Below are positions 34,004 to 47,934 of a DNA stretch of 64,000 nucleotides, in pieces. Source of the stretch: an uncultured Oscillospiraceae bacterium (GTDB lineage: Bacteria; Bacillota; Clostridia; Oscillospirales; Oscillospiraceae); the NCBI GenBank assembly GCA_944385035.1, contig CALWVV010000006.1, positions 94,589 through 158,588 of the forward strand. Reading direction: 5' to 3'. How positions within the stretch are numbered: position 1 is the first letter of the stretch; each line of letters opens with the position of its first letter. The notes under the pieces are model-generated. The model made no database searches. It was not told where the DNA came from and saw nothing but the letters and a program-made list of their open reading frames with translations. Made by a program: the position numbers and the translations under genes.

Positions 34004-34834
34004 TTATTTGTACCGCGCCCGGAACAGGGGACGCAGCTCAGAAATGGGTGCTTTGGTCTCAATCAGCTGGCGCATCCGCTCCTCGGAGGCAGCGATCTTC
34101 AAGCACTCCTCCAGCACCGGCTCCGCCAGTTCATAGGGGACAATACATACGCCGGAGTCATCCGCCACCATCAAGTCACCGGGCATGACCAATTTACCGC
34201 ACAGGGTGACGGGGCCGTTCATTTCGATGCACTCCATGCGGAACTTGCCTGTGATCTGGGTCGTCCCACAGCTAAATACAGGATAACCCATTTCCCGGAT
34301 GGAGGATACGTCCCGGCAGCAGCCGTTGACAATGTTTCCGGCAAAGCCGCAGCTCTTGCCCACGGTGCAGCTCTGTCCACCCATGTTGGATACTTCTAAA
34401 TTCCCGCCAAAATCGGACACCAGTACATCACCCGGCTCACCAAGGTAGTAGATGTCTCTGGTGGACATGGCAATGAAATCGTGGTCATGGGCTCCTTGTG
34501 TGGGAGTCTTGCGCACCGGAATGTTCCGGATCGTCACAGCCGGGCCGCAGATCTTGCTGCCCGGAATCACCGGCTTCAGGTATGAGGTGGGGATGGCCCC
34601 GTCAATTCCATAGCCGTCCAGAACATCGGAGACAGTTGTGCTCATGTCTTCCATGGACAGGTACCCATCAATGATGTCTTTGCTGACACGGGGGAACTTG
34701 ATCCGGGTGATTCGCTCCCGTGGGACCAGGCCCCAGATGCGTCCAGCCGCCTCGTACTCCACATAGTCTTTGTCCCGCTGGGCGCGTAGCGCGGCGATTT
34801 CCTCATTTGCTTTTTCTACCTGTGTGATATCCAT
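34004..34834 (-). CDS. RraA-family (HMG aldolase-like) protein, copy 2
   Basis: 276 residues; same layout as copy 1 with shared blocks (YEAAGRIWGLVPRERITRIK, FPRVSKDIIDGY). Keeps the Arg-Asp pair as GCCRDVSSI and GDLMVADDSGVCIVP. Two intact paralogues in one operon may act on two intermediates or form a hetero-oligomer. First gene of the tct operon; AGGAG is upstream of the ATG. Confidence 0.82.
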   Translation of the reverse strand: MDITQVEKANEEIAALRAQRDKDYVEYEAAGRIWGLVPRERITRIKFPRVSKDIIDGYLSMEDMSTTVSDVLDGYGIDGAIPTSYLKPVIPGSKICGPAVTIRNIPVRKTPTQGAHDHDFIAMSTRDIYYLGEPGDVLVSDFGGNLEVSNMGGQSCTVGKSCGFAGNIVNGCCRDVSSIREMGYPVFSCGTTQITGKFRMECIEMNGPVTLCGKLVMPGDLMVADDSGVCIVPYELAEPVLEECLKIAASEERMRQLIETKAPISELRPLFRARYK

Positions 34835-34862
34835 AAGCCATGCTCCTTTTTACAATATTTCT

Positions 34863-34879
34863 AAATAGGAAACCTATTT
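34863..34879. promoter_or_regulatory. Candidate IclR operator
   Basis: Perfect inverted repeat AAATAGG-AAA-CCTATTT. On the minus strand it begins at the end of a -10-like TAGAAA (34883-34878), which has TTGACG 17 bases further upstream (34906-34901). A repressor bound here would block the tct operon. Confidence 0.6.
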
Positions 34880-34985
34880 TCTAATCAAAGGATATCACAT
34901 CGTCAAAAAATATTCAATATATACAACAAAGGATAAAAAATTTCGTATATATTAAACATTTATAACGGGAAGTTTTTAATAAAAT

Positions 34986-35022
34986 CCCCCACACTGTTTC
35001 CTATCAGGAAATTAGGTGGGGG
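34986..35022 (-). terminator. Terminator of the iclR gene
   Basis: Stem CCCCCAC (34986-34992) / GTGGGGG (35016-35022) with an inner TTTCC/GGAAA stem, followed on the minus strand by ATTTTATT. It separates iclR from the tct operon. Confidence 0.7.
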
Positions 35023-35037
35023 TGTGTTTCCCATATA

Positions 35038-35799
35038 TTAAAGAGAATTTCCGATCGCACCACTGCTCAGATCTTTGGACATTTCCTTTGCTATTTCTTT
35101 CACCAGAAAAATGTAGCGTTCCAGTTTGGCCTGATCTACCCGCGCCCTGGGCGCGCCGATGGAAATAGCCGCCCAAACCGTTCCGGACTCATCCCGAATG
35201 GGAGCGCCGATGCCAATGGTCTCAATACTCAGCTCCCCATCGCTGATCGCATATCCCTGTGCGCGAATTTTGGCGTACTCCTCCAAGAGTTCATCTGGAG
35301 AAATGATCGTGCGCTCGGTCAGCGGCGTAATGGGTTCCTCCATCAGGCGCCGGCGGATCACCTCATCCCCCTGGAATGCACCCAAAACCTTTCCGTTGGC
35401 CCCGGCGTACAGGGGACGCTCCTGTCCCACATTGCCCGCCACCCGGACGGCCTGGAGGCTCTCCTCCCGATAGACCAAATTTGCTTTTCCGTCAATCAGC
35501 ATACTGAAGGAGGCATTCTCCCCAGTGAGGTCCCGCAGGCGCGCCAGATATGGTTTCACCATTTTGGACAACCCGATATGATCCTCATAGGTTTTTCCCA
35601 AAATATATACTACCGGTCCCAAGGTATATTTTCGGTCTACCGTTTGAGCGGCCAACCCACATTTGACCAGGGCAGCTAAAAGTTTACACGTCCCACTTTT
35701 CGTACAGCCGATTTTTTCTCCCAGCTCAGTAACACTGTGAACATAGGGAACCTGACCGAGTAACTTCAGCAATAAGACCGTTTTCTCACCAGAGGTCAT
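35038..35799 (-). CDS. IclR-family transcriptional regulator
   Basis: 253 residues. N-terminal winged helix ('VLLLKLLGQVPYVHSVTELG', 'EKIGCTKSGTCKLLAALVKCG') and C-terminal IclR effector domain from about 75 ('IDGKANLVYREES', 'ETIGIGAPIRDESGTVWAAIS'). IclR proteins sense small acids and control catabolic operons. It is directly upstream of the tct operon on the same strand with its own promoter and terminator. Confidence 0.88.
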   Translation of the reverse strand: MTSGEKTVLLLKLLGQVPYVHSVTELGEKIGCTKSGTCKLLAALVKCGLAAQTVDRKYTLGPVVYILGKTYEDHIGLSKMVKPYLARLRDLTGENASFSMLIDGKANLVYREESLQAVRVAGNVGQERPLYAGANGKVLGAFQGDEVIRRRLMEEPITPLTERTIISPDELLEEYAKIRAQGYAISDGELSIETIGIGAPIRDESGTVWAAISIGAPRARVDQAKLERYIFLVKEIAKEMSKDLSSGAIGNSL

Positions 35800-36110: not shown

Positions 36111-36145
36111 ATGGACAAATGCCATCCAAAAAGGGGGCCTTTCCT

Positions 36146-39100
36146 ATGGAAGCTACGTTTACGGTAAGGGCATATTTGCTGCAAGCTCCGCGCATCGAAT
36201 GCAACGGAGAAGAAATACCAATCCGCCTTAAGCGGGCAGCCGCAGTTCTTTACTATGTCATTGTAAAGCAAAATGCTGCCAGAGAAGAATTGGCCGCCTT
36301 GATTTGGCCGGAAGAAAATTCCGAGCTGGCTCACCGTCATCTTCGGGACATTCTCTATTATCTGGGAAAGCAGTTTCCCCTTAAACTAATCGTTCCCCAC
36401 GGCCGCAGCAACTTAAAGTTCAACCCTGAGATCCATTTAATTTGTGATGTCGCACTGTTTCAAGCGGGAACTGGAATTGACCACTACGGCGGAGATTTTC
36501 TAGATGGCTTCACATTGGACGACGGGGCCGCCTATGAAGAATGGGTCCTAGAAATGCGCAGTTTTCTGCGCGATCAATATTTACAGCGGCTGGAACAGAT
36601 GGCAAAAACCGCCCAGGCGGAACAGCAGATGGAGTCCGCAGAACAATACTGGAACCTGTATTTAAAGGAAGAGCCTCTCTCTGAATCCGCCGCAGCCGCT
36701 CTGATGAGCCTGTACCGCACACAGCGGAACTTCAATAAAGCCGCACTGGTTTACCGACGGCTCCATGGAGCGCTGGCCGATTACCTTGGAATTTCACCGC
36801 TGAAAGAAACATCCGCGCTCTATCGCACCATTATGTCCGAGTGGAACGACTGCGCCTGCGCCAAAGATGACCAGGTGGAGGAACTCCTGATCGGCCGTCA
36901 AGCGCTATTTGAGCACCTTTCAAAATGTTTCAACACCAAAAAAAGTTTTTCCATGGTCCTGCAGGGTGAGGCGGGTGTTGGGAAAACACACCTGCTGAAT
37001 TATTTGCTCAATCACGCGGTCAGAGAACCTTGGGTCACCATCACCGCTTCCTGCTATAAATCAAAGAAAGACGACCCGCTTTATCCCTGGCAGGCCATTA
37101 TGCTCTCCATTTCAAACCTGATCGCCAGCAAGAAAATTTCCGTACCGGAACAAACCTTACCGCTGGCTGCCACCCTTTTTCCGGTGCTGGCGCCGGCCTC
37201 TGCAGTGGACAGCACAAACATAAAATACCCCTTCGGGGTCGACCTGGAATATGACAGCATTGTATCCATTTTAGCGGCAAGCTCCGCTTGTGCTCCGTTG
37301 TTGCTGGTATTTGAAGACATTCAGTGGATGGATCGGGCCAGCCTCAATTTATTAGACCAGGCCTTGCACAAAATATCCCCATCGCGGGTATTGGTTGCAG
37401 CCACCTGCCGCCAGCCTGCCGATAAAAATGTGACTGCCTTTCTTGACTCAGCTCAGGAGGACCATTTGCTGCAGAGATATACCCTGCAGCCCTTCACACG
37501 GGAAGAAACCATGCAGTTTATGGAGCAATCAGAAGCCAGAACCTTTTCATCCGACCTGAAAGAGCGAATTTATCAGGACACGCAGGGAAATGCATTTTTA
37601 TTGACTCAACTGATCAACAGTTTGCTGGAGCAAGGTTGTCCCTCCATTATGCCCAGCAACATGAACGATATTGTGTCCTACCGTCTTTCTGGTCTCAGTG
37701 CAGAGGGACAGCAGGTGCTGAACCTGGTCGCCATGTTTCCGGATGCCGCGCCCTATGAAGTTCTGGAGCACATCAGCAACAAGGCGCCGCTGGACCTGCT
37801 TTATATCTGCCAGGAACTTTGCAGACGATCTATTCTGGCGGAGCTTCAGGATGGCGGCCAGCTATCATTGGTCTTTGCACAGCCCGAATTTCGGGATCTG
37901 GTCTACGCACAAATTCACCCGCTCAGCCGGAGAATCATCCATCTGAATATCGCCACCGCGCTGACCCACTTCACCTCCATGCAGGTGCCCGGCTTAACGT
38001 CTCAGATCATCTATCACTACCAGCAGGGAGGCGATAAGCGCAACGCCCTGCGGTATCAGATCAAGTTTCTGGGGGCATATACCTATTATCACTATGCGCT
38101 GGTATCATGCTCGGATTCCGCAGACGATCCAATGCCCAACACAGACACGCAGGCAATGAAACATTTTCAGAAGGTGGAAAAAAAGCTTGCTGAGCTAAAG
38201 GCCGTCTCATCGGATCCCGAGCTTGACCAGATGGAGAACGATATTTTGTACGCAAAGGCCTGCTTTTGTGTCTTCAAAGGGTTTTACGAAGCAGGGGTAG
38301 AAGCCCTCCAAACCATATTGGCCAAACCGGCCGTGGACCCGGTACTGCAGGATCTTGCACACGAGCAGATGATGTACTATGGAATTCAAACCTATAACAC
38401 CGCCATTTTCCGCGCACATCTATCTTCCGCGTTGGATCTGACCAGAGGAAAAAATCCCACCCGCTACGCGATCAACCGGCGCTATTACGGGTACTTGCTT
38501 TTCATGGAAGGAAGCTATGAGGAAAGCCGCATCGAGCTAAAGCATTCTCTTGAACTTCTCCGCAGCGCTTTTTCCAGGGGATTGGATCTGACGCTGCAGT
38601 CCTCCTACGCCTACAACTATATCGGTGAGGCATACCGCAAAGAGGGACATTACGAGCAGGCCATGGAATGCTATCAGTGTGCAATCCGGGAGCTGGAACA
38701 GTTTGGTGTCTTTTCGTGGGTATCGGTTTTTTATACCAACTGTGCTCATGCTGCCTTTGCCGCCAAAAAGTACCAATGTGCCAAAACTTTGCTGAAGCAG
38801 GCGGAGAAGCATTCCTCCTATATTCAGGAACCGGGCGGACATCGCACCATCGCCTACTCCTACACGGCGCTCTATGCGTTTTCCGAGGGCAAGGATGCAC
38901 AAGTATGCCGCCTTCTGCAGCAGGCAAAGCGATTTGCAGATGCGCTGCAATCCCCCTATGAACAGGGGATCGTGTGGATGTGCAAAGCAATCATACGGCG
39001 GCGCTGCGACCAAATTTCCGAGTTCCACCCGGCAGTCAGCGAATTTCTCAACCGCCCCTACGCCGAGTATCTGTCCTATAGTCAGACGCTGCTGGCAGGG

Positions 39101-39199
39101 AAGGCCGGCCGTTTTGAACAGGAGATGCTGGAGGCCCTGGCACAAGGAAACGATGAAATCCTTCGCGGCTTCTGGCAATTTAGCGGTTCATTACACTAG
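36146..39199 (+). CDS. Large BTAD/ATPase/TPR transcriptional regulator (AfsR/SARP-like)
   Basis: 1017 residues from the ATG at 36146 (GGGGG site 8 bases upstream). The N-terminal winged helix (about 1-95) is of the OmpR/SARP type, followed by a bacterial transcriptional activator domain with TPR-like helices (about 100-235, ending 'ALADYLGISPLKETSALY'). An ATPase domain follows with Walker A GEAGVGKT at 274-281 and Walker B LLLVFEDIQWMD near 385. The C-terminal 400 residues are helical repeats (TPR-like; 'AYNYIGEAYRKEGHYEQAMECY'). Such STAND-type regulators respond to a ligand and activate adjacent genes. It lies 160 bases before the symporter and lyase genes. Confidence 0.85.
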   Translation: MEATFTVRAYLLQAPRIECNGEEIPIRLKRAAAVLYYVIVKQNAAREELAALIWPEENSELAHRHLRDILYYLGKQFPLKLIVPHGRSNLKFNPEIHLICDVALFQAGTGIDHYGGDFLDGFTLDDGAAYEEWVLEMRSFLRDQYLQRLEQMAKTAQAEQQMESAEQYWNLYLKEEPLSESAAAALMSLYRTQRNFNKAALVYRRLHGALADYLGISPLKETSALYRTIMSEWNDCACAKDDQVEELLIGRQALFEHLSKCFNTKKSFSMVLQGEAGVGKTHLLNYLLNHAVREPWVTITASCYKSKKDDPLYPWQAIMLSISNLIASKKISVPEQTLPLAATLFPVLAPASAVDSTNIKYPFGVDLEYDSIVSILAASSACAPLLLVFEDIQWMDRASLNLLDQALHKISPSRVLVAATCRQPADKNVTAFLDSAQEDHLLQRYTLQPFTREETMQFMEQSEARTFSSDLKERIYQDTQGNAFLLTQLINSLLEQGCPSIMPSNMNDIVSYRLSGLSAEGQQVLNLVAMFPDAAPYEVLEHISNKAPLDLLYICQELCRRSILAELQDGGQLSLVFAQPEFRDLVYAQIHPLSRRIIHLNIATALTHFTSMQVPGLTSQIIYHYQQGGDKRNALRYQIKFLGAYTYYHYALVSCSDSADDPMPNTDTQAMKHFQKVEKKLAELKAVSSDPELDQMENDILYAKACFCVFKGFYEAGVEALQTILAKPAVDPVLQDLAHEQMMYYGIQTYNTAIFRAHLSSALDLTRGKNPTRYAINRRYYGYLLFMEGSYEESRIELKHSLELLRSAFSRGLDLTLQSSYAYNYIGEAYRKEGHYEQAMECYQCAIRELEQFGVFSWVSVFYTNCAHAAFAAKKYQCAKTLLKQAEKHSSYIQEPGGHRTIAYSYTALYAFSEGKDAQVCRLLQQAKRFADALQSPYEQGIVWMCKAIIRRRCDQISEFHPAVSEFLNRPYAEYLSYSQTLLAGKAGRFEQEMLEALAQGNDEILRGFWQFSGSLH

Positions 39200-39358
39200 A
39201 TGACGCAGAACTGACGGAACTTCTCTATACTAAGGCGCAAGAAGAGAGAATTTGTCAACAAACCCATCTTCCTGCCGATGCCATTGCGGAGGCGAGGATG
39301 GCACAGCCGCCCGTTCTCTCTCAAAAGATTGAAACGTGTTTGAAAGGTGGAGAAGTTT

Positions 39359-40789
39359 ATGACATCGATTTACCTGGTTCTGGCAATCTACATGTGCATT
39401 CTGTTTGGAATCGGCGTGTATTGCACCAAGAAGAACCAAAATGTAACTGACTTCCTCCTGGCAGGTCGAAGTCTGGGCGTAGTGGCCGCAACACTGACGA
39501 TCACGGCCTCTTTGTTTGGCGGCGGACTGCTGACCGGCACCGCCCAGTACGCCTATGAGTCAGGACCCATGATGTATGTCTACGGCGGGACCCAGGGCAT
39601 CGGATTATTCCTGGCGGCACTTTTAGTGCACAAAATGGCCAATTTTTCCAATTACGGAACAGTGACTGAGTACTTGGAGTGGCGCTTCAACAGCAAATTC
39701 CTGCGCACCGCGGCTTCCTTCCTGTCTATGATCGCCCTGATCGGTATTTTGGGCGGCCAGGTTTCCGCTGTGGTAGGAATCATGAACGCGCTGGGCTTTA
39801 CCAACACCATGTTCTGCACCTTGCTGGCCATGGCCGTTATTATCGCCCTGACCGCCATGGGCGGCCTGATGGCCGTCACCATGACCGACTGTTTCCAAAT
39901 TATTCTTGTTATCATTGGCGTGATTTGGATCTTCTTCACCGCCTTAGGCAACCACGGCGGTTTTGATGGAATCAATGCCTCGCTTGCGGAAATGGCCTCT
40001 ACCCTGCCCGAGGGGTTCAACGTATTTATGAACGGCTCCAAGGCAACGACCTTGGCCTGGATGATCCTGCCCGGCATTATGTATGTCATTATTGGCCAGG
40101 ATATCTACCAGCGGCTGTTTGCTTGTAAAGACGGCAAGACCGCCGTTAAGGCTTCTCTGGCTTCCGGCGCTCTGGTGATGGTCATTTCCATGATGCCTGT
40201 AACCCTCGGTTTGATGGCCCGTATCGACTTTCCGGAGCTGGCGGCCAACGGCACCACCGCTTCTGCTTTCGCCACCTTGGCCATGGCTACTCTGCCTTCC
40301 TGGGGCGTTGGCATCATCATGGCCGCCGCTTTGTCGGCTATTCTTTCCACGGCAGATTCTCTGCTGAGCGCAGCCTCCTCTCATTTTATGAATGACTTCT
40401 GGATGTGCTATATTGCAAAGGATGCAGATCCCAACGACAAAAAACTGCTGTGGGTCTCCCGTATCTTTACGGTCGTCGCCGGTGTTGCGGCAGTGGTAAT
40501 CTCTTTGATGATCCCCAGCATTCTGGATGCCTGCTTCTACTCTTACTACATTTACACCGGCGGCGTGTTTGCCCCCATTGTATTTGGTGTATTCTGGAAA
40601 AAGACAGCGAAAGAGGGCGCCATTGCAGGCCTGCTGTTCGGCGCGATGTTTGTGGTTTTGTCCCTCACCGGAATTGTCAATATGGGCGGCATCCCCGGCG
40701 AGCTGTTCAGCGGTGTTGTTTCGGCCATTGTGCTGGTGATCGTCTCGCTGGCCACGGCCAACCGCCACAAGGATACGGCCGCGAGCTGA
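39359..40789 (+). CDS. Sodium:solute symporter family transporter
   Basis: 476 residues with about 13 helices. SSS-family features: 'DFLLAGRSLGVVAATLTITASLFGGG' near 25-50 (the sodium/substrate unwound helix), 'GLMAVTMTDCFQIILVIIG', and 'ALSAILSTADSLLSAASSHF' near 325, the Na2-site helix. AAAGGTGGAG precedes the ATG at 39359; a GTG at 39347 is possible but lies in that site. Imports an amino acid, betaine or carboxylate; the following lyase suggests the substrate is that enzyme's. Confidence 0.9.
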   Translation: MTSIYLVLAIYMCILFGIGVYCTKKNQNVTDFLLAGRSLGVVAATLTITASLFGGGLLTGTAQYAYESGPMMYVYGGTQGIGLFLAALLVHKMANFSNYGTVTEYLEWRFNSKFLRTAASFLSMIALIGILGGQVSAVVGIMNALGFTNTMFCTLLAMAVIIALTAMGGLMAVTMTDCFQIILVIIGVIWIFFTALGNHGGFDGINASLAEMASTLPEGFNVFMNGSKATTLAWMILPGIMYVIIGQDIYQRLFACKDGKTAVKASLASGALVMVISMMPVTLGLMARIDFPELAANGTTASAFATLAMATLPSWGVGIIMAAALSAILSTADSLLSAASSHFMNDFWMCYIAKDADPNDKKLLWVSRIFTVVAGVAAVVISLMIPSILDACFYSYYIYTGGVFAPIVFGVFWKKTAKEGAIAGLLFGAMFVVLSLTGIVNMGGIPGELFSGVVSAIVLVIVSLATANRHKDTAAS

Positions 40790-40837: not shown

Positions 40838-42379
40838 ATGCTGATCAAAGGGGATGCACAGTTAATCCGTGAGGTCCTGGTGGACGATTGCCGCATTTCA
40901 CTGGAAGAATTTGTTGCAGTTGCCCGTTACCATGCAAAGGTCCGCTTTTCGGATGCGTACTGCCAGCGTGTGCGAAACAGTCGCAGGATTTTAGAGGAGC
41001 GTATCTCTGACGGCGTCGGGATTTACGGTGTCAACACCGGTTTTGGAGACAATGTCCGGTACCGCATCAGCGAGCATGACATGGTTCGTCTTCAGGAGAA
41101 CATTATCCGCAGCCACGGCTGTTCGGTTGGGCGATTATTGGAGGAAGAAGAAGTCCGCGCCATGCTTTTACTGCTGATCACAAATATTGGGAAGGGATAT
41201 TCTGCCACGCGCTTTGAGATCGTGGAGCAAGCACGGCTGTTTCTCAACGAGGGGATTTACCCCTATGTCCCCGCAGAAGGTACGGTAGGGCAGCTGACCT
41301 GCCAGCCCTATATGGCAATCACACTTTTTGGCGAAGGGCGTATCATCGACAAGGGTGAAGCCCGCCCTGCCGCGGAAGTTCTGGCAGAACACAACATCGC
41401 TCCCATTCAGATCAGTTTCCGGGAAGGCTTGGCTTCGCTGACCAACGCCAGCGGCTCTGTGGGAACGGCAATGTTAGCCATATATGACTATGTGATGGCG
41501 GTACGCCATGGAGATTTGTGCGCAGCCCTGGTCTGTGAAGCACTTCAAAGCACCGATAAACATTTTGATCCTCGGCTCATGGCCGGGAAGGGGCACAAAG
41601 AACAGATCGCATCCGCGGAATATCTGCTCAAGCTGCTGAAAAACAGTGAAATTGTAGCAGACGCGCGAAAGAGTCATATTCAGGACAGCAGCAGCATTCG
41701 AATCATTCCGCATGTGCAAGGCGTGGCAAAGCGTATGGGGGAGCAGGCCTACCAGGCAATGATGGAAGAATTCTACGCCGTATTTGATAACCCCATATTT
41801 CTTCCCGACGGCACAGCACTCATGGGTTCCAACTGGGATGCCACCATGATCGAAGCATATTGTGACAGCCTGTGTCTGGGGGTAATGAACCTTGCCAAGC
41901 TGTTTGAGGTACATATGGAGCGTATGGTGACGCCTACCCTCAGCGGACTGCCTGCGTTTCTGGTCAAAAACCCCGGTCTCAATAACGGATTTATGCTGGT
42001 CCAATATTCTACACTGGGTCTTCTGGGGGATATCCTGCTGCTTGCCAATCCGGCCGGCGCCTTTAACGGCGCGGTCAGCGCAGGCCAGGAGAGCCCGCTT
42101 TACCGGGACGAAACCGCAGCCCGCAAGCTGCGCACGGCAGTCAGAAAACTGGAACATCTCATCTCCCTGACGATGATGACCGCTCTGCAGGCACTGGAAT
42201 TCCGGACCCGCGCCATGTCTCCCATTACGCAGAAGCTGTACGATGAGGCACGCCGTACGGTTACCTTTATGGAAAATGATGATTTGATGTATGAGCGGAT
42301 CGAAGCAATGGAAGCGCTGGTCAAGAGCAATCGTCTGCTGCAGCTGGCTCAAGAGTTAGCAGGGGACTTTGTCTTCTAA
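40838..42379 (+). CDS. Histidine ammonia-lyase homologue lacking the MIO triad (candidate ergothionase-like lyase)
   Basis: 513 residues, the length of histidine ammonia-lyase. Superfamily features are kept: 'GIYGVNTGFG' with Tyr63, LPAFL..PGLNNGFM near 385 and SAGQES near 425. The MIO-forming site of active lyases reads GSVG-ASG-DLAPLAHM; here it is GTVG directly followed by QLTCQPYM (148-159), an exact three-residue gap, so no MIO can form. The catalytic Tyr of the QDxYSxR motif is Ser285 (QDSSSIR, 282-288). Ergothionases are known MIO-free members that eliminate trimethylamine from ergothioneine. A symporter precedes it by 48 bases. Assignment to that activity is inference; an unrelated betaine or amino-acid lyase is possible. 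Not a normal hutH. Confidence 0.8.
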   Translation: MLIKGDAQLIREVLVDDCRISLEEFVAVARYHAKVRFSDAYCQRVRNSRRILEERISDGVGIYGVNTGFGDNVRYRISEHDMVRLQENIIRSHGCSVGRLLEEEEVRAMLLLLITNIGKGYSATRFEIVEQARLFLNEGIYPYVPAEGTVGQLTCQPYMAITLFGEGRIIDKGEARPAAEVLAEHNIAPIQISFREGLASLTNASGSVGTAMLAIYDYVMAVRHGDLCAALVCEALQSTDKHFDPRLMAGKGHKEQIASAEYLLKLLKNSEIVADARKSHIQDSSSIRIIPHVQGVAKRMGEQAYQAMMEEFYAVFDNPIFLPDGTALMGSNWDATMIEAYCDSLCLGVMNLAKLFEVHMERMVTPTLSGLPAFLVKNPGLNNGFMLVQYSTLGLLGDILLLANPAGAFNGAVSAGQESPLYRDETAARKLRTAVRKLEHLISLTMMTALQALEFRTRAMSPITQKLYDEARRTVTFMENDDLMYERIEAMEALVKSNRLLQLAQELAGDFVF

Positions 42380-42400
42380 CGTTCTCCGGACCATTTCAAT

Positions 42401-42440
42401 CACAAAGCGGCTATCGGACAAGATAGCCGCTTTGTGGTTC
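42401..42440 (+). terminator. Terminator of the symporter/lyase operon
   Basis: A 15-bp stem CACAAAGCGGCTATC (42401-42415) with GATAGCCGCTTTGTG (42422-42436), then TTCCTTTT. Confidence 0.85.
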
Positions 42441-46248: not shown

Positions 46249-47934
46249 TTATTCCGGCTCCACGATGACCTCAAAGGAGAGGGTGTCACTGGTCTCATAA
46301 CCGATGCCTGTGATGGTAAAGTGGACGGTGCCGGTGATGGTGGCGGTGCCGGGAGCAACCGCAGTAACAAGCGCAGACGGTATCTCGGTGGTCTCTTTCA
46401 CCTGTGCAACGGAGGGATCGCTGCTGGTCCAGGTCACAGAATCCAGCGTGGTTCCACTGTAAAGCGCATAGGGAGACACGGTGTTCGAGCGGGTTTGCCC
46501 CGCCGTCAAGGTCATGGGCGAGCTGGGAGGCGCATAGTCCCATTGGAAGTGATCCTCTACAGTTACAGGAATATGAACCTGATAGTTTCCGTCCTGGGGG
46601 AATGTGATGATAATCTCCGCCTGTCCCGGACGCAGCAAATAGATCACTTCCCCCTCCCCTACATAGGCCACTGACGGATCGGTGGAGGAATAGGTAATGC
46701 TGTCAAAGGGTGTCTTTCCGGCGTAGACGGTAATGAGGCCGGCCCGCACCGTGCCATAACCGCCGGTGATGGAATCGTAGGCCAGCTTGAGCTGAGAGGG
46801 ACCTGTGGGTTCGGGCTCCGGTTCTGGTTCCGGCTCCGGTTCCGGTTCGGGCTCAGGTTCCGGTTCTGGTTCGGGCTCCGGCTGGGGCTCCGGTTCCGGT
46901 TCTGGTTCCGGTTCGGGTTCCGGTTCGGGCTCCACTTCGGGTTCCTCTTCGATCACCGGTTCCACGACCTCCACCGCCGGCGGGGGAACCGGGTCCACGG
47001 GAGCTGGTTCCGGGCGGTTGAGCAGGACGGTACCGCCAATGGCGCCGGTCAGCACCACGCCGGCCACGGCGGCGGCGACCTCCTTGTGCGCCAACACCGC
47101 GGTCAGAACATTTCCCGCAGAGGCGGAGGCCCCTGCGCCTGCCCCACCCGCAGCGGCGGTGCTCTCCACGGCCCCCGCCGCCCCTGCAGCAGCGCTTTGC
47201 GCAGCCCCCGCTGTCCCTGCGGCAGCAAGTGCAGAGGAACTCCCCGCCAAAGCAGCCTGAACAAAGGCACCGCTTTGCGCCGCCGTCAGGCCGCCAAGCA
47301 GGGCATCCTGCTTGAGAATGTATGCCAGGAAGGGCAGCGGAGCCAGCCCATAGAGCTTGATCCCCTGGGCAGCGTAGCGATCCACCCCCGTTTTGATGGC
47401 CTTGCGTGCATAGTTGAGCCGGCTTTTTACCGTGCCCTCGGAAGTCTCCAGAGCGGCGGCAATTTCCTTAACGCCCATCTCATCGTAGTAATACATCAAC
47501 ACGCACTGGCGCTGGGCCTCGGGCAGGGCATCCACCAGCTCCACAATCATACGGCGGCTCTCTTCACTGTCCAGGGCCTTGTCCGGAACGACCTGATCAT
47601 CCAGCGTCTCATAGGAATCGATCAGGCTGTTTCCCTCCTCGTCCTGGGGGAACTGCACCTCCCGTGAGCCACGGACCAGCGCATTCCGGCACTGGTTTGC
47701 GGTCATGGCACTCAGCCATCCCCAAAAGGCCGCCGGTTCCTTCAGCGTATCCAGCTTACTCAGCATGGAAATCAAAACCTCCTGGGTGGCATCCAGGGCA
47801 TTGTCTTCATGCTTGAGCATCTTTTTGCAGTGATAATACACCCGGTTTTGTACCGCCAGCACCAGGGCCTCCTGGGCCTGCCCGTCTCCCTCCAGACAGC
47901 GGGGGATCAAGCTGGCTACATCGATCTTTTCCAT
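46249..47934 (-). CDS. Sigma factor fused to membrane helix, Pro-Glu stalk and Ig-like domains
   Basis: 561 residues. Residues 1-185 form an ECF sigma factor: region 2 near 20-90 ([14 protein letters not shown]) and region 4 near 130-185 ('[20 protein letters not shown]', [18 protein letters not shown]). An Ala/Gly-rich linker (about 215-280) leads to a membrane helix at about 286-305 with Lys/His on the inner side. Outside is a stalk of alternating Pro-Glu (329-376), then two bacterial Ig-like (BIG2-type) segments ([13 protein letters not shown]; '[14 protein letters not shown]'). This puts sensor and sigma factor in one chain. Release by proteolysis, as in RseA-type systems, is inference. 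It is divergent from the SLH genes. Confidence 0.85.
46806..46945. repeat. Hexanucleotide-type tandem repeat encoding the Pro-Glu stalk
   Basis: About 24 copies of a GGTTCC/GGCTCC/GGTTCG-type unit (plus strand), encoding alternating Glu and Pro on the minus strand. Slippage would change stalk length by one Pro-Glu pair per unit without shifting frame. Confidence 0.85.

Follow-up and report, generated by a model that had tools for sequence, protein, structure and literature searches.

A HutH-like lyase gene without the MIO triad in an uncultured Oscillospiraceae bacterium, and its relatives beside BCCT transporters

The lyase gene and its surroundings

The window, that is, the whole stretch of 64,000 nucleotides of an uncultured Oscillospiraceae bacterium analysed here, carries a unit in the order BTAD/AAA regulator, symporter, lyase and hairpin (Table 1). 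The lyase reading frame has no internal stop across its 513 codons. Its product matches the Pfam family Lyase_aromatic (PF00221) with 408.5 bits, against a gathering cut-off of 27.3, over residues 21–472 and profile positions 2–465 of 466, and so belongs to this superfamily. With the HutH equivalog profile TIGR01225 it scores 375, below the cut-off of 539.15.

Table 1. Features of the lyase unit and positions of active-site residues in the window
Feature	Position	Strand	Basis or remark
BTAD/AAA/TPR transcriptional regulator, possible regulator of the unit	36119..39199	+	profile match
Sodium:solute symporter (PF00474), 48 nt upstream of the lyase	39347..40789	+	profile match
MIO-free HutH-like lyase gene	40838..42379	+	ATG start, 513 aa, coordinates include the stop
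Tyr63, counterpart of HAL Tyr53	41024..41026	+	Tyr in 185/185 aligned rows
His93, counterpart of HAL His83	41114..41116	+	alignment
GTVGQLTCQPYM block, residues 148–159, three-residue gap replacing the MIO triad	41279..41314	+	alignment
Ser285, at the HAL Tyr280 column	41690..41692	+	alignment
Arg288, counterpart of HAL Arg283	41699..41701	+	alignment
Asp334, at the HAL His330 column	41837..41839	+	alignment
Glu418, counterpart of HAL Glu414	42089..42091	+	alignment
Terminator-like hairpin, 18 pairs, directly after the lyase stop	42398..42439	+	hairpin search, RNA fold

At the MIO site, where MIO enzymes read GSVGASGDLAPLAHM, the window protein reads GTVGQ---LTCQPYM (G148-T-V-G-Q152-L153-T-C-Q-P-Y-M), and GS(L/V)GASGDLAPLAHM of the MIO enzymes corresponds to GTVGQLTCQPYM. 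Aligned to Pseudomonas putida HAL, for which the reference chain was 1gkj, a Y280F mutant, the window protein has no residue opposite S143, G144 and D145, and its Q152 stands opposite A142. Naming the missing residues ASG or SGD depends on the placement of the gap; the Ala-Ser-Gly triad is lost in both. Because this triad is absent MIO cannot form, and as read from the alignment the window protein is MIO-free. The clean three-residue gap described in an earlier note on this DNA is thus borne out. So are two further observations of that note, a serine in place of the catalytic tyrosine, which aligns with HAL Tyr280, and a retained Tyr63 in a full-length protein, which spans the whole PF00221 domain.

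The Tyr280 column is variable among the 51 MIO-free rows of our alignment (Leu in 39, Tyr in 10, Cys and Ser in one each). Other substitutions with respect to HAL are Asn195 to Thr202, Phe329 to Trp333 and His330 to Asp334. In HAL, Phe329, the column just before His330, lines the active site, and Arg283 binds the carboxylate. The AlphaFold2 model of the window protein is confident overall (pLDDT 92.7, pTM 0.93), with a confidence of only 62 in the stretch 411–420, which holds Glu418. Foldseek TM scores (by query) of the model are 0.89–0.92 to HAL entries, with 0.90–0.92 for those of P. putida, slightly better than the 0.88 to ergothionase (6s7j). The protein resembles HutH/HAL (1b8f, 6v6h; TIGR01225) in its fold, in the counterparts of Tyr53, His83, Arg283 and Glu414, and in having HALs as nearest PDB sequences. 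It differs, however, in the lost MIO triad, the lost Tyr280, the Asp at the His330 column and the TIGR01225 score below the cut-off.

Eight hairpin-like sites were found in the region versus 7.3 expected by chance; the one after the lyase is far longer than the other seven, which have 5–6 pairs. Folding of positions 42380–42440 as RNA gave −31.2 kcal/mol (z −7.97). The earlier note took the gene to be under selection; the intact reading frame and the strong hairpin after it would agree with this, but the many changes at conserved columns (see below) would not.

Besides the window gene, the genome has three other PF00221 genes, four in all. One, on a different contig, encodes a normal HutH; the remaining two are MIO-free paralogues lying about 4 kb from each other, with products 39–41% identical to the window protein. 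The symporter of the window shares 40–41% identity with four members of a cluster of five symporters that adjoin other MIO-free lyases in the genus, and 26% with the fifth member. Since the lyases are 39–41% identical and the symporters much alike in divergence, this suggests that the pair diverged together. The BTAD regulator shares 33% identity with the one encoded at L089, a locus of the ergothionase clade. Relatives of it are also present at L155 and L239 and, in L242, beside a MIO lyase; since it stands beside a MIO lyase too, it was dropped as a marker of ergothionase or of a substrate.

No BCCT transporter (the betaine/carnitine/choline transporter family) and no urocanase gene were found beside the lyase at this locus, where the PF00474 symporter stands instead. 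Adjoining the lyase unit on the opposite strand are genes for an RraA-like aldolase and an IclR regulator (34004–35799, minus strand). Further along, a sigma-factor-like protein, recognised by eye, has a long Pro-Glu repeat tract ahead of its C-terminal part (46249–47934, minus strand).

Relatives with the three-residue gap, and ergothionase

The MIO-free type is more general than the single window gene. Our alignment holds 185 rows, namely 125 MIO, 51 three-residue-gap and nine ergothionase-clade sequences, with the rows classed by the motif itself. A quick tree was built from 111 rows; in it, the 31 sequences with the three-residue gap cluster together with a support of 100, and the six ergothionase rows make up a cluster of their own (also 100). 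In a more careful tree, which had 59 rows and took in plasmid-borne relatives, the values were 98/90 for 33 MIO-free rows and 100/100 for nine ergothionase-clade rows. Because the gap is common to 51 of the 185 rows, and the gap rows cluster with a support of 100, it is not a chance loss. On these trees the MIO-free clade is distinct from that of the Treponema denticola ergothionase. The best tree and the difference between the gaps favour MIO having been lost twice; a single group of all MIO-free rows, ergothionases included, was not rejected by the AU test (p 0.158).

Within the genus, a search matched 37 of 64 genomes; going by the stretches fetched, at least 19 of these 64 genomes have MIO-free genes. 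The best 80 matches of a profile scan of named genomes correspond to 79 loci; MIO-free genes are present at 18 loci, two of which may repeat loci already in the set. The carriers among the matches listed include Clostridium mobile, Geosporobacter subterraneus, Candidatus Blautia merdipullorum, Lachnospiraceae and a Peptoniphilus, as well as Acidaminococcus provencensis, Acinetobacter sp. ANC 4558 (two genes), Candidatus Adiutrix and a record labelled Lutibacter sp. B2. The clade was also found in a cockroach-gut deltaproteobacterium, and a sister form on a Klebsiella plasmid. Outside the genus, the fetched matches in a sample of 200 genomes of the family were all MIO enzymes (11 of 11 genomes), as were those in a sample of 394 genomes of the order (21 of 21 matching genomes, some repeating the family ones). 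In a sample of 398 genomes of the phylum, the best-scoring 29 of 128 matching genomes all had MIO enzymes; the matches beyond these 29 include some at 300–350 bits. On the basis of these best 29 of 128 for the phylum, the distribution of the MIO-free type looks patchy.

A comparison with ergothionase separates the two types at the level of residues. The window protein is 23% identical to the T. denticola ergothionase (6s7j) and 27% to P. putida HAL, and its best sequence matches in the PDB are HALs (229 bits versus 134 for 6s7j). Like the window protein, 6s7j is MIO-free, has counterparts of the conserved residues (its Tyr53, His83, Arg280 and Glu411) and has an acid at the HAL 330 column. Unlike the window protein, it shows a one-residue loss with a Glu (GE-GD) rather than a three-residue gap, has an NKD motif and falls in a separate clade. 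Where ergothionase has Trp61, Lys63, Asp64 and Glu142, the window protein has Asp71, Val73, Arg74 and Gln152. All ergothionase-clade rows compared (6s7j, five others that are 47–60% identical to it, and three more) carry Lys63 and Asp64 of the NKD motif, which the window protein lacks.

Members of the ergothionase clade were found in the genus as well. A set of them in four genomes (L088–L092) reads G(S/A)(I/V)GE-(G/A)D at the MIO site, and the best PDB match of one L088 gene is the T. denticola ergothionase 6s7j, with 533 bits. Both types coexist in four genomes of the genus (G204, G217, G244 and G250), each with an ergothionase-clade gene in addition to its MIO-free genes. Genes of Burkholderia arboris, Polaromonas and Sinorhizobium belong to the ergothionase clade too and have the NKD motif. 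Plasmid-borne genes of this clade read GSVGAA-D (L283:6995-8614) and GSVGQA-D (L284:5938-7578); the Sinorhizobium one lies near a gene annotated as dimethylsulfoniopropionate lyase. Large-subunit genes of molybdenum hydroxylases lie within 6 kb of seven of nine ergothionase-clade genes, and a BCCT gene is adjacent to three of the nine. In L088:4791-17408, three ergothionase-clade genes share 13 kb with two molybdenum-hydroxylase gene sets, and in L239 and L241 one ergothionase-clade gene each adjoins the same type of molybdenum hydroxylase.

Where MIO has been lost, the HAL 330 column carries an acid, the Klebsiella plasmid sister being an exception. The column holds Asp in all 51 three-residue-gap rows and Glu in all nine ergothionase-clade rows, while the 125 MIO rows have His in 124 and Gln in one. 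Exceptions found later are the His of the Klebsiella sister and the Asp of the Polaromonas ergothionase-clade gene. At other columns, a tandem MIO-free pair in a BCCT operon (L057:770-4152) has Ser-Asp for Ser-His at HAL 82–83, perhaps with another ring specificity. A divergent lyase group (L085:4490-6118, L086, L087) carries the triad Ala-Cys-Gly for Ala-Ser-Gly, with molybdenum hydroxylase or ABC transporter genes beside it.

The nine-row sub-clade of the window protein (99/97 in the careful tree) includes members from BCCT operons (L150, L152 and L144) and members from symporter cassettes, from its own genome and from the cockroach-gut deltaproteobacterium. Among columns conserved in the MIO-free clade, 33 of 105 are changed in the window protein, the most of all 51 rows (the next has 19 of 107), and five of 28 superfamily-wide columns are changed as well. 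The superfamily-wide Asp409, Asp419 and Glu445 columns read Phe, Ser and Thr. The clade hallmarks Tyr152 and Glu156, kept in the other 50 rows, are Gln152 and Gln156. Its branch is the longest listed in the quick tree (1.89) and second to L281 in the careful tree (1.52). No relative above 41% identity was found in 200 genomes of the family and 64 of the genus, and a direct scan of genome contigs confirmed no close relative. As the most divergent member of the clade, the window protein would therefore have either its own substrate or a loss of function.

Transporters and urocanase beside MIO-free genes

Neighbours were counted in 148 loci (L053–L112, L142–L220 and L237–L245), with one row per distinct lyase, leaving out duplicates and reading frames of 300 aa or less, and with gene gaps measured from stop to stop. 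They were called by profiles made from loci of the genus; the BCCT profile corresponds to PF02028 for the one member tested. Of the MIO-free genes, 26 of 52 have a BCCT gene in the same orientation as direct neighbour, compared with 0 of 94 MIO and three of nine ergothionase-clade genes (MIO-free versus MIO, Fisher p 1e-14, kinship ignored). A single genus supplies 30 of the 52 MIO-free rows, and these are not independent of one another. Within the genus the counts are 18 of 30 MIO-free versus 0 of 20 MIO genes. Outside it, a BCCT gene lies within 6 kb in 11 of 22 MIO-free rows. Only two MIO rows have a transporter within 6 kb: L153, where the BCCT belongs to a MIO-free gene, and L104, where a symporter lies on the opposite strand. 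Ten of the 52 MIO-free genes, including L149, have neither a BCCT nor a symporter gene on the same strand within 6 kb.

In the genus, the unit that occurs most often comprises a sigma-54 regulator, a BCCT, the lyase and a small membrane protein. This small protein (L065:8794-9045; 84–94 aa in the genus) is encoded near 23 of the 52 MIO-free genes, and in 21 of these cases a BCCT is present as well; the one that was tested, of 84 aa, had no Pfam or NCBIfam match. A second type of unit, with the lyase and a sodium:solute symporter, occurs in the window, with the paralogues of its own genome, with several relatives and in the cockroach-gut deltaproteobacterium. Weak symporter matches in L146, L151 and L154 (72–129 versus 523 for L279) may be other transporters. 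In one further locus (L155:1591-4550), two aconitase-X (AcnX) genes directly follow the MIO-free lyase, with a BTAD regulator nearby.

Some MIO-free lyases are found among genes of histidine degradation. In Acinetobacter sp. ANC 4558, the genes for urocanase, an amidohydrolase, an arginase-family protein and glutamate dehydrogenase (gdh) precede a MIO-free lyase (L149), and we read the amidohydrolase and the arginase-family gene as hutI and hutG. This genome also has a MIO lyase, on another contig, where it is accompanied by a permease gene and the end of a further urocanase gene. The L149 protein (GSVGYLAPEAH) shares the three-residue gap, the Asp at the 334 column and the clade with the window protein. 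It differs in following hutU and hut-type genes and in belonging to the other main sub-clade, and is 34% identical to the window protein. In the Lachnospiraceae locus L144, molybdenum-hydroxylase genes and two MIO-free lyases are followed by a BCCT and a urocanase gene.

A Klebsiella pneumoniae plasmid (L281:7004-8536, NZ_CP138728.1) has a MIO-free lyase among hutU, hutI, hutC and a hutD-family gene, together with genes for a formimidoylglutamate deiminase and an ABC transporter; it is the sole lyase in the stretch read. This protein (GSVGYLIATAH) shares the three-residue gap and is the sister of the clade (98/90). In contrast to the window protein, to which it is 30% identical, it has His at the 334 column and an ABC transporter beside it. 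In a tblastn search, 226 Klebsiella plasmid records match L149; the motif was checked in one of them, and some are annotated as ordinary hutH.

Altogether, urocanase genes lie near four of the 52 MIO-free rows, of which two are one locus (L144) and one is L153, with the Klebsiella plasmid outside this count. The urocanase of L153 is better explained by the HutH gene that it stands beside. The co-occurrence of urocanase in genomes of the genus (31 of 64, the window's own included) was set aside as too unspecific to serve as evidence.

Gene neighbourhoods suggest quaternary-ammonium substrates for the MIO-free clade. Because the clade is linked to BCCT transporters and, in few loci, to urocanase, its members probably catalyse an elimination on a betaine. 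If urocanate is formed from a betaine by loss of trimethylamine, the substrate would be hercynine (histidine betaine). As judged from gene neighbours, the likeliest reaction of the urocanase-linked members would therefore be that of hercynine to urocanate and trimethylamine. For the window protein, membership in the betaine class is suggested by its sub-clade, since this has BCCT-linked members, one of which (L144) is also urocanase-linked.

Possible chemistry, rival readings and meaning

A quaternary nitrogen cannot add to MIO, an argument known for ergothionase, and this would be why MIO is dispensable for betaines. Ergothionase itself is stated to lack MIO (PMC13405746). Ser-to-Ala mutants of two phenylalanine ammonia-lyases, which are unable to make MIO, have practically no activity (PMC3903478, PMC12535398). 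Because ordinary lyases need MIO, a MIO-free member would need a substrate with a better leaving group. The MIO-free clade probably works like ergothionase, with elimination of trimethylamine from imported betaines.

For the window protein, such a mechanism could proceed as follows. The sodium symporter would import an aromatic, probably imidazole-bearing, quaternary amino acid. Tyr63 would abstract the beta-hydrogen, Arg288 would hold the carboxylate, and the acidic Asp334 and Glu418 may accommodate the cationic leaving group. Neutral trimethylamine would then depart without a covalent MIO adduct, leaving an aryl-acrylate. On balance, we lean slightly toward a MIO-free branch of the HAL fold that would eliminate trimethylamine from imported aromatic betaines, and of which the window gene would be a member. 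Weighing against it are the lack of a BCCT and a urocanase beside the window gene, the strong divergence of the window protein, the ten MIO-free genes with neither transporter type, the rarity of urocanase links and the His of the Klebsiella sister.

Another candidate is a MIO-free lyase or hydro-lyase acting on a histidine-like compound that is not a betaine but has another good leaving group. It would fit the sodium:solute symporter, rather than a BCCT, in the window and the nearest cassettes, and the two AcnX genes of L155 hint at other substrates in the clade. Such an enzyme is nevertheless unlikely, given the BCCT-linked members in the same sub-clade and the Asp at the 334 column in all 51 rows. 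A decaying or re-purposed pseudoenzyme would explain why the branch of the window protein is among the longest, why no other row differs at so many conserved columns and why no match exceeds 41% identity. We regard this as quite unlikely, as the reading frame of 513 aa is intact and followed by a strong hairpin, the model is confident, Tyr63, His93, Arg288, Asp334 and Glu418 are all kept, and the partner symporter is intact and has diverged to a like degree.

The earlier note had gone further and proposed a possible MIO-free elimination on ergothioneine or another betaine or amino acid. The MIO-free part of this proposal stands, and a betaine substrate is probable from the BCCT and urocanase links; the identity as ergothionase, which would convert ergothioneine to thiourocanate and trimethylamine, is not supported. 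Such an identity would be in keeping with the absence of MIO in the same fold (TM 0.88 to 6s7j), the regulator of the same family at an ergothionase-clade locus, and an Acidaminococcus locus (L151) in which an ergothionase-clade gene is directly followed by two MIO-free genes. However, the alignment to 6s7j and HAL that the note had called for found no counterparts of Trp61, Lys63, Asp64 and Glu142. Ergothionase was dropped on these residues (no NKD motif, no Glu142) and on the separate clade (100 and 100/100), which was drawn without the sequence of the characterised ergothionase of Burkholderia sp. HME13. Together with the 23% identity to 6s7j and the coexistence of both types in the four genomes named above, this makes an ergothionase in the window improbable. 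Finally, an ordinary MIO enzyme with an electrophile from other residues, or a triad lost by sequencing error, has nothing found in its favour and can be set aside, as the gap is in frame, occurs in 51 rows from several phyla and comes with other clade-specific columns.

Returning to the betaine reading, we tentatively suggest that the clade may be a second MIO-free lineage of the HAL fold beside ergothionase, radiated into aromatic-betaine trimethylammonia-lyases that would include a hercynine lyase feeding histidine catabolism. Within it, the window protein would be a symporter-coupled member, the one that has diverged furthest, and would act on its own substrate. In the mostly open-access literature surveyed (e.g. 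PMC7653990, PMC9002059, PMC11089744, PMC9103826), ergothionase was the sole histidine-type lyase described as MIO-free and a hercynine lyase did not appear; an earlier description is possible. Members of the clade and its sister (L279, L281) are annotated as histidine or aromatic amino acid ammonia-lyases, though MIO cannot form in them.

The clade offers a natural comparison, within one fold, of elimination with and without a built-in electrophile, and also lets the acid at the HAL 330 column be compared against the loss of MIO. If the betaine reading is true, these enzymes would be an uncounted source of trimethylamine in gut anaerobes, some of which carry several copies, in environmental clostridia and in Acinetobacter, with a sister form on Klebsiella plasmids.
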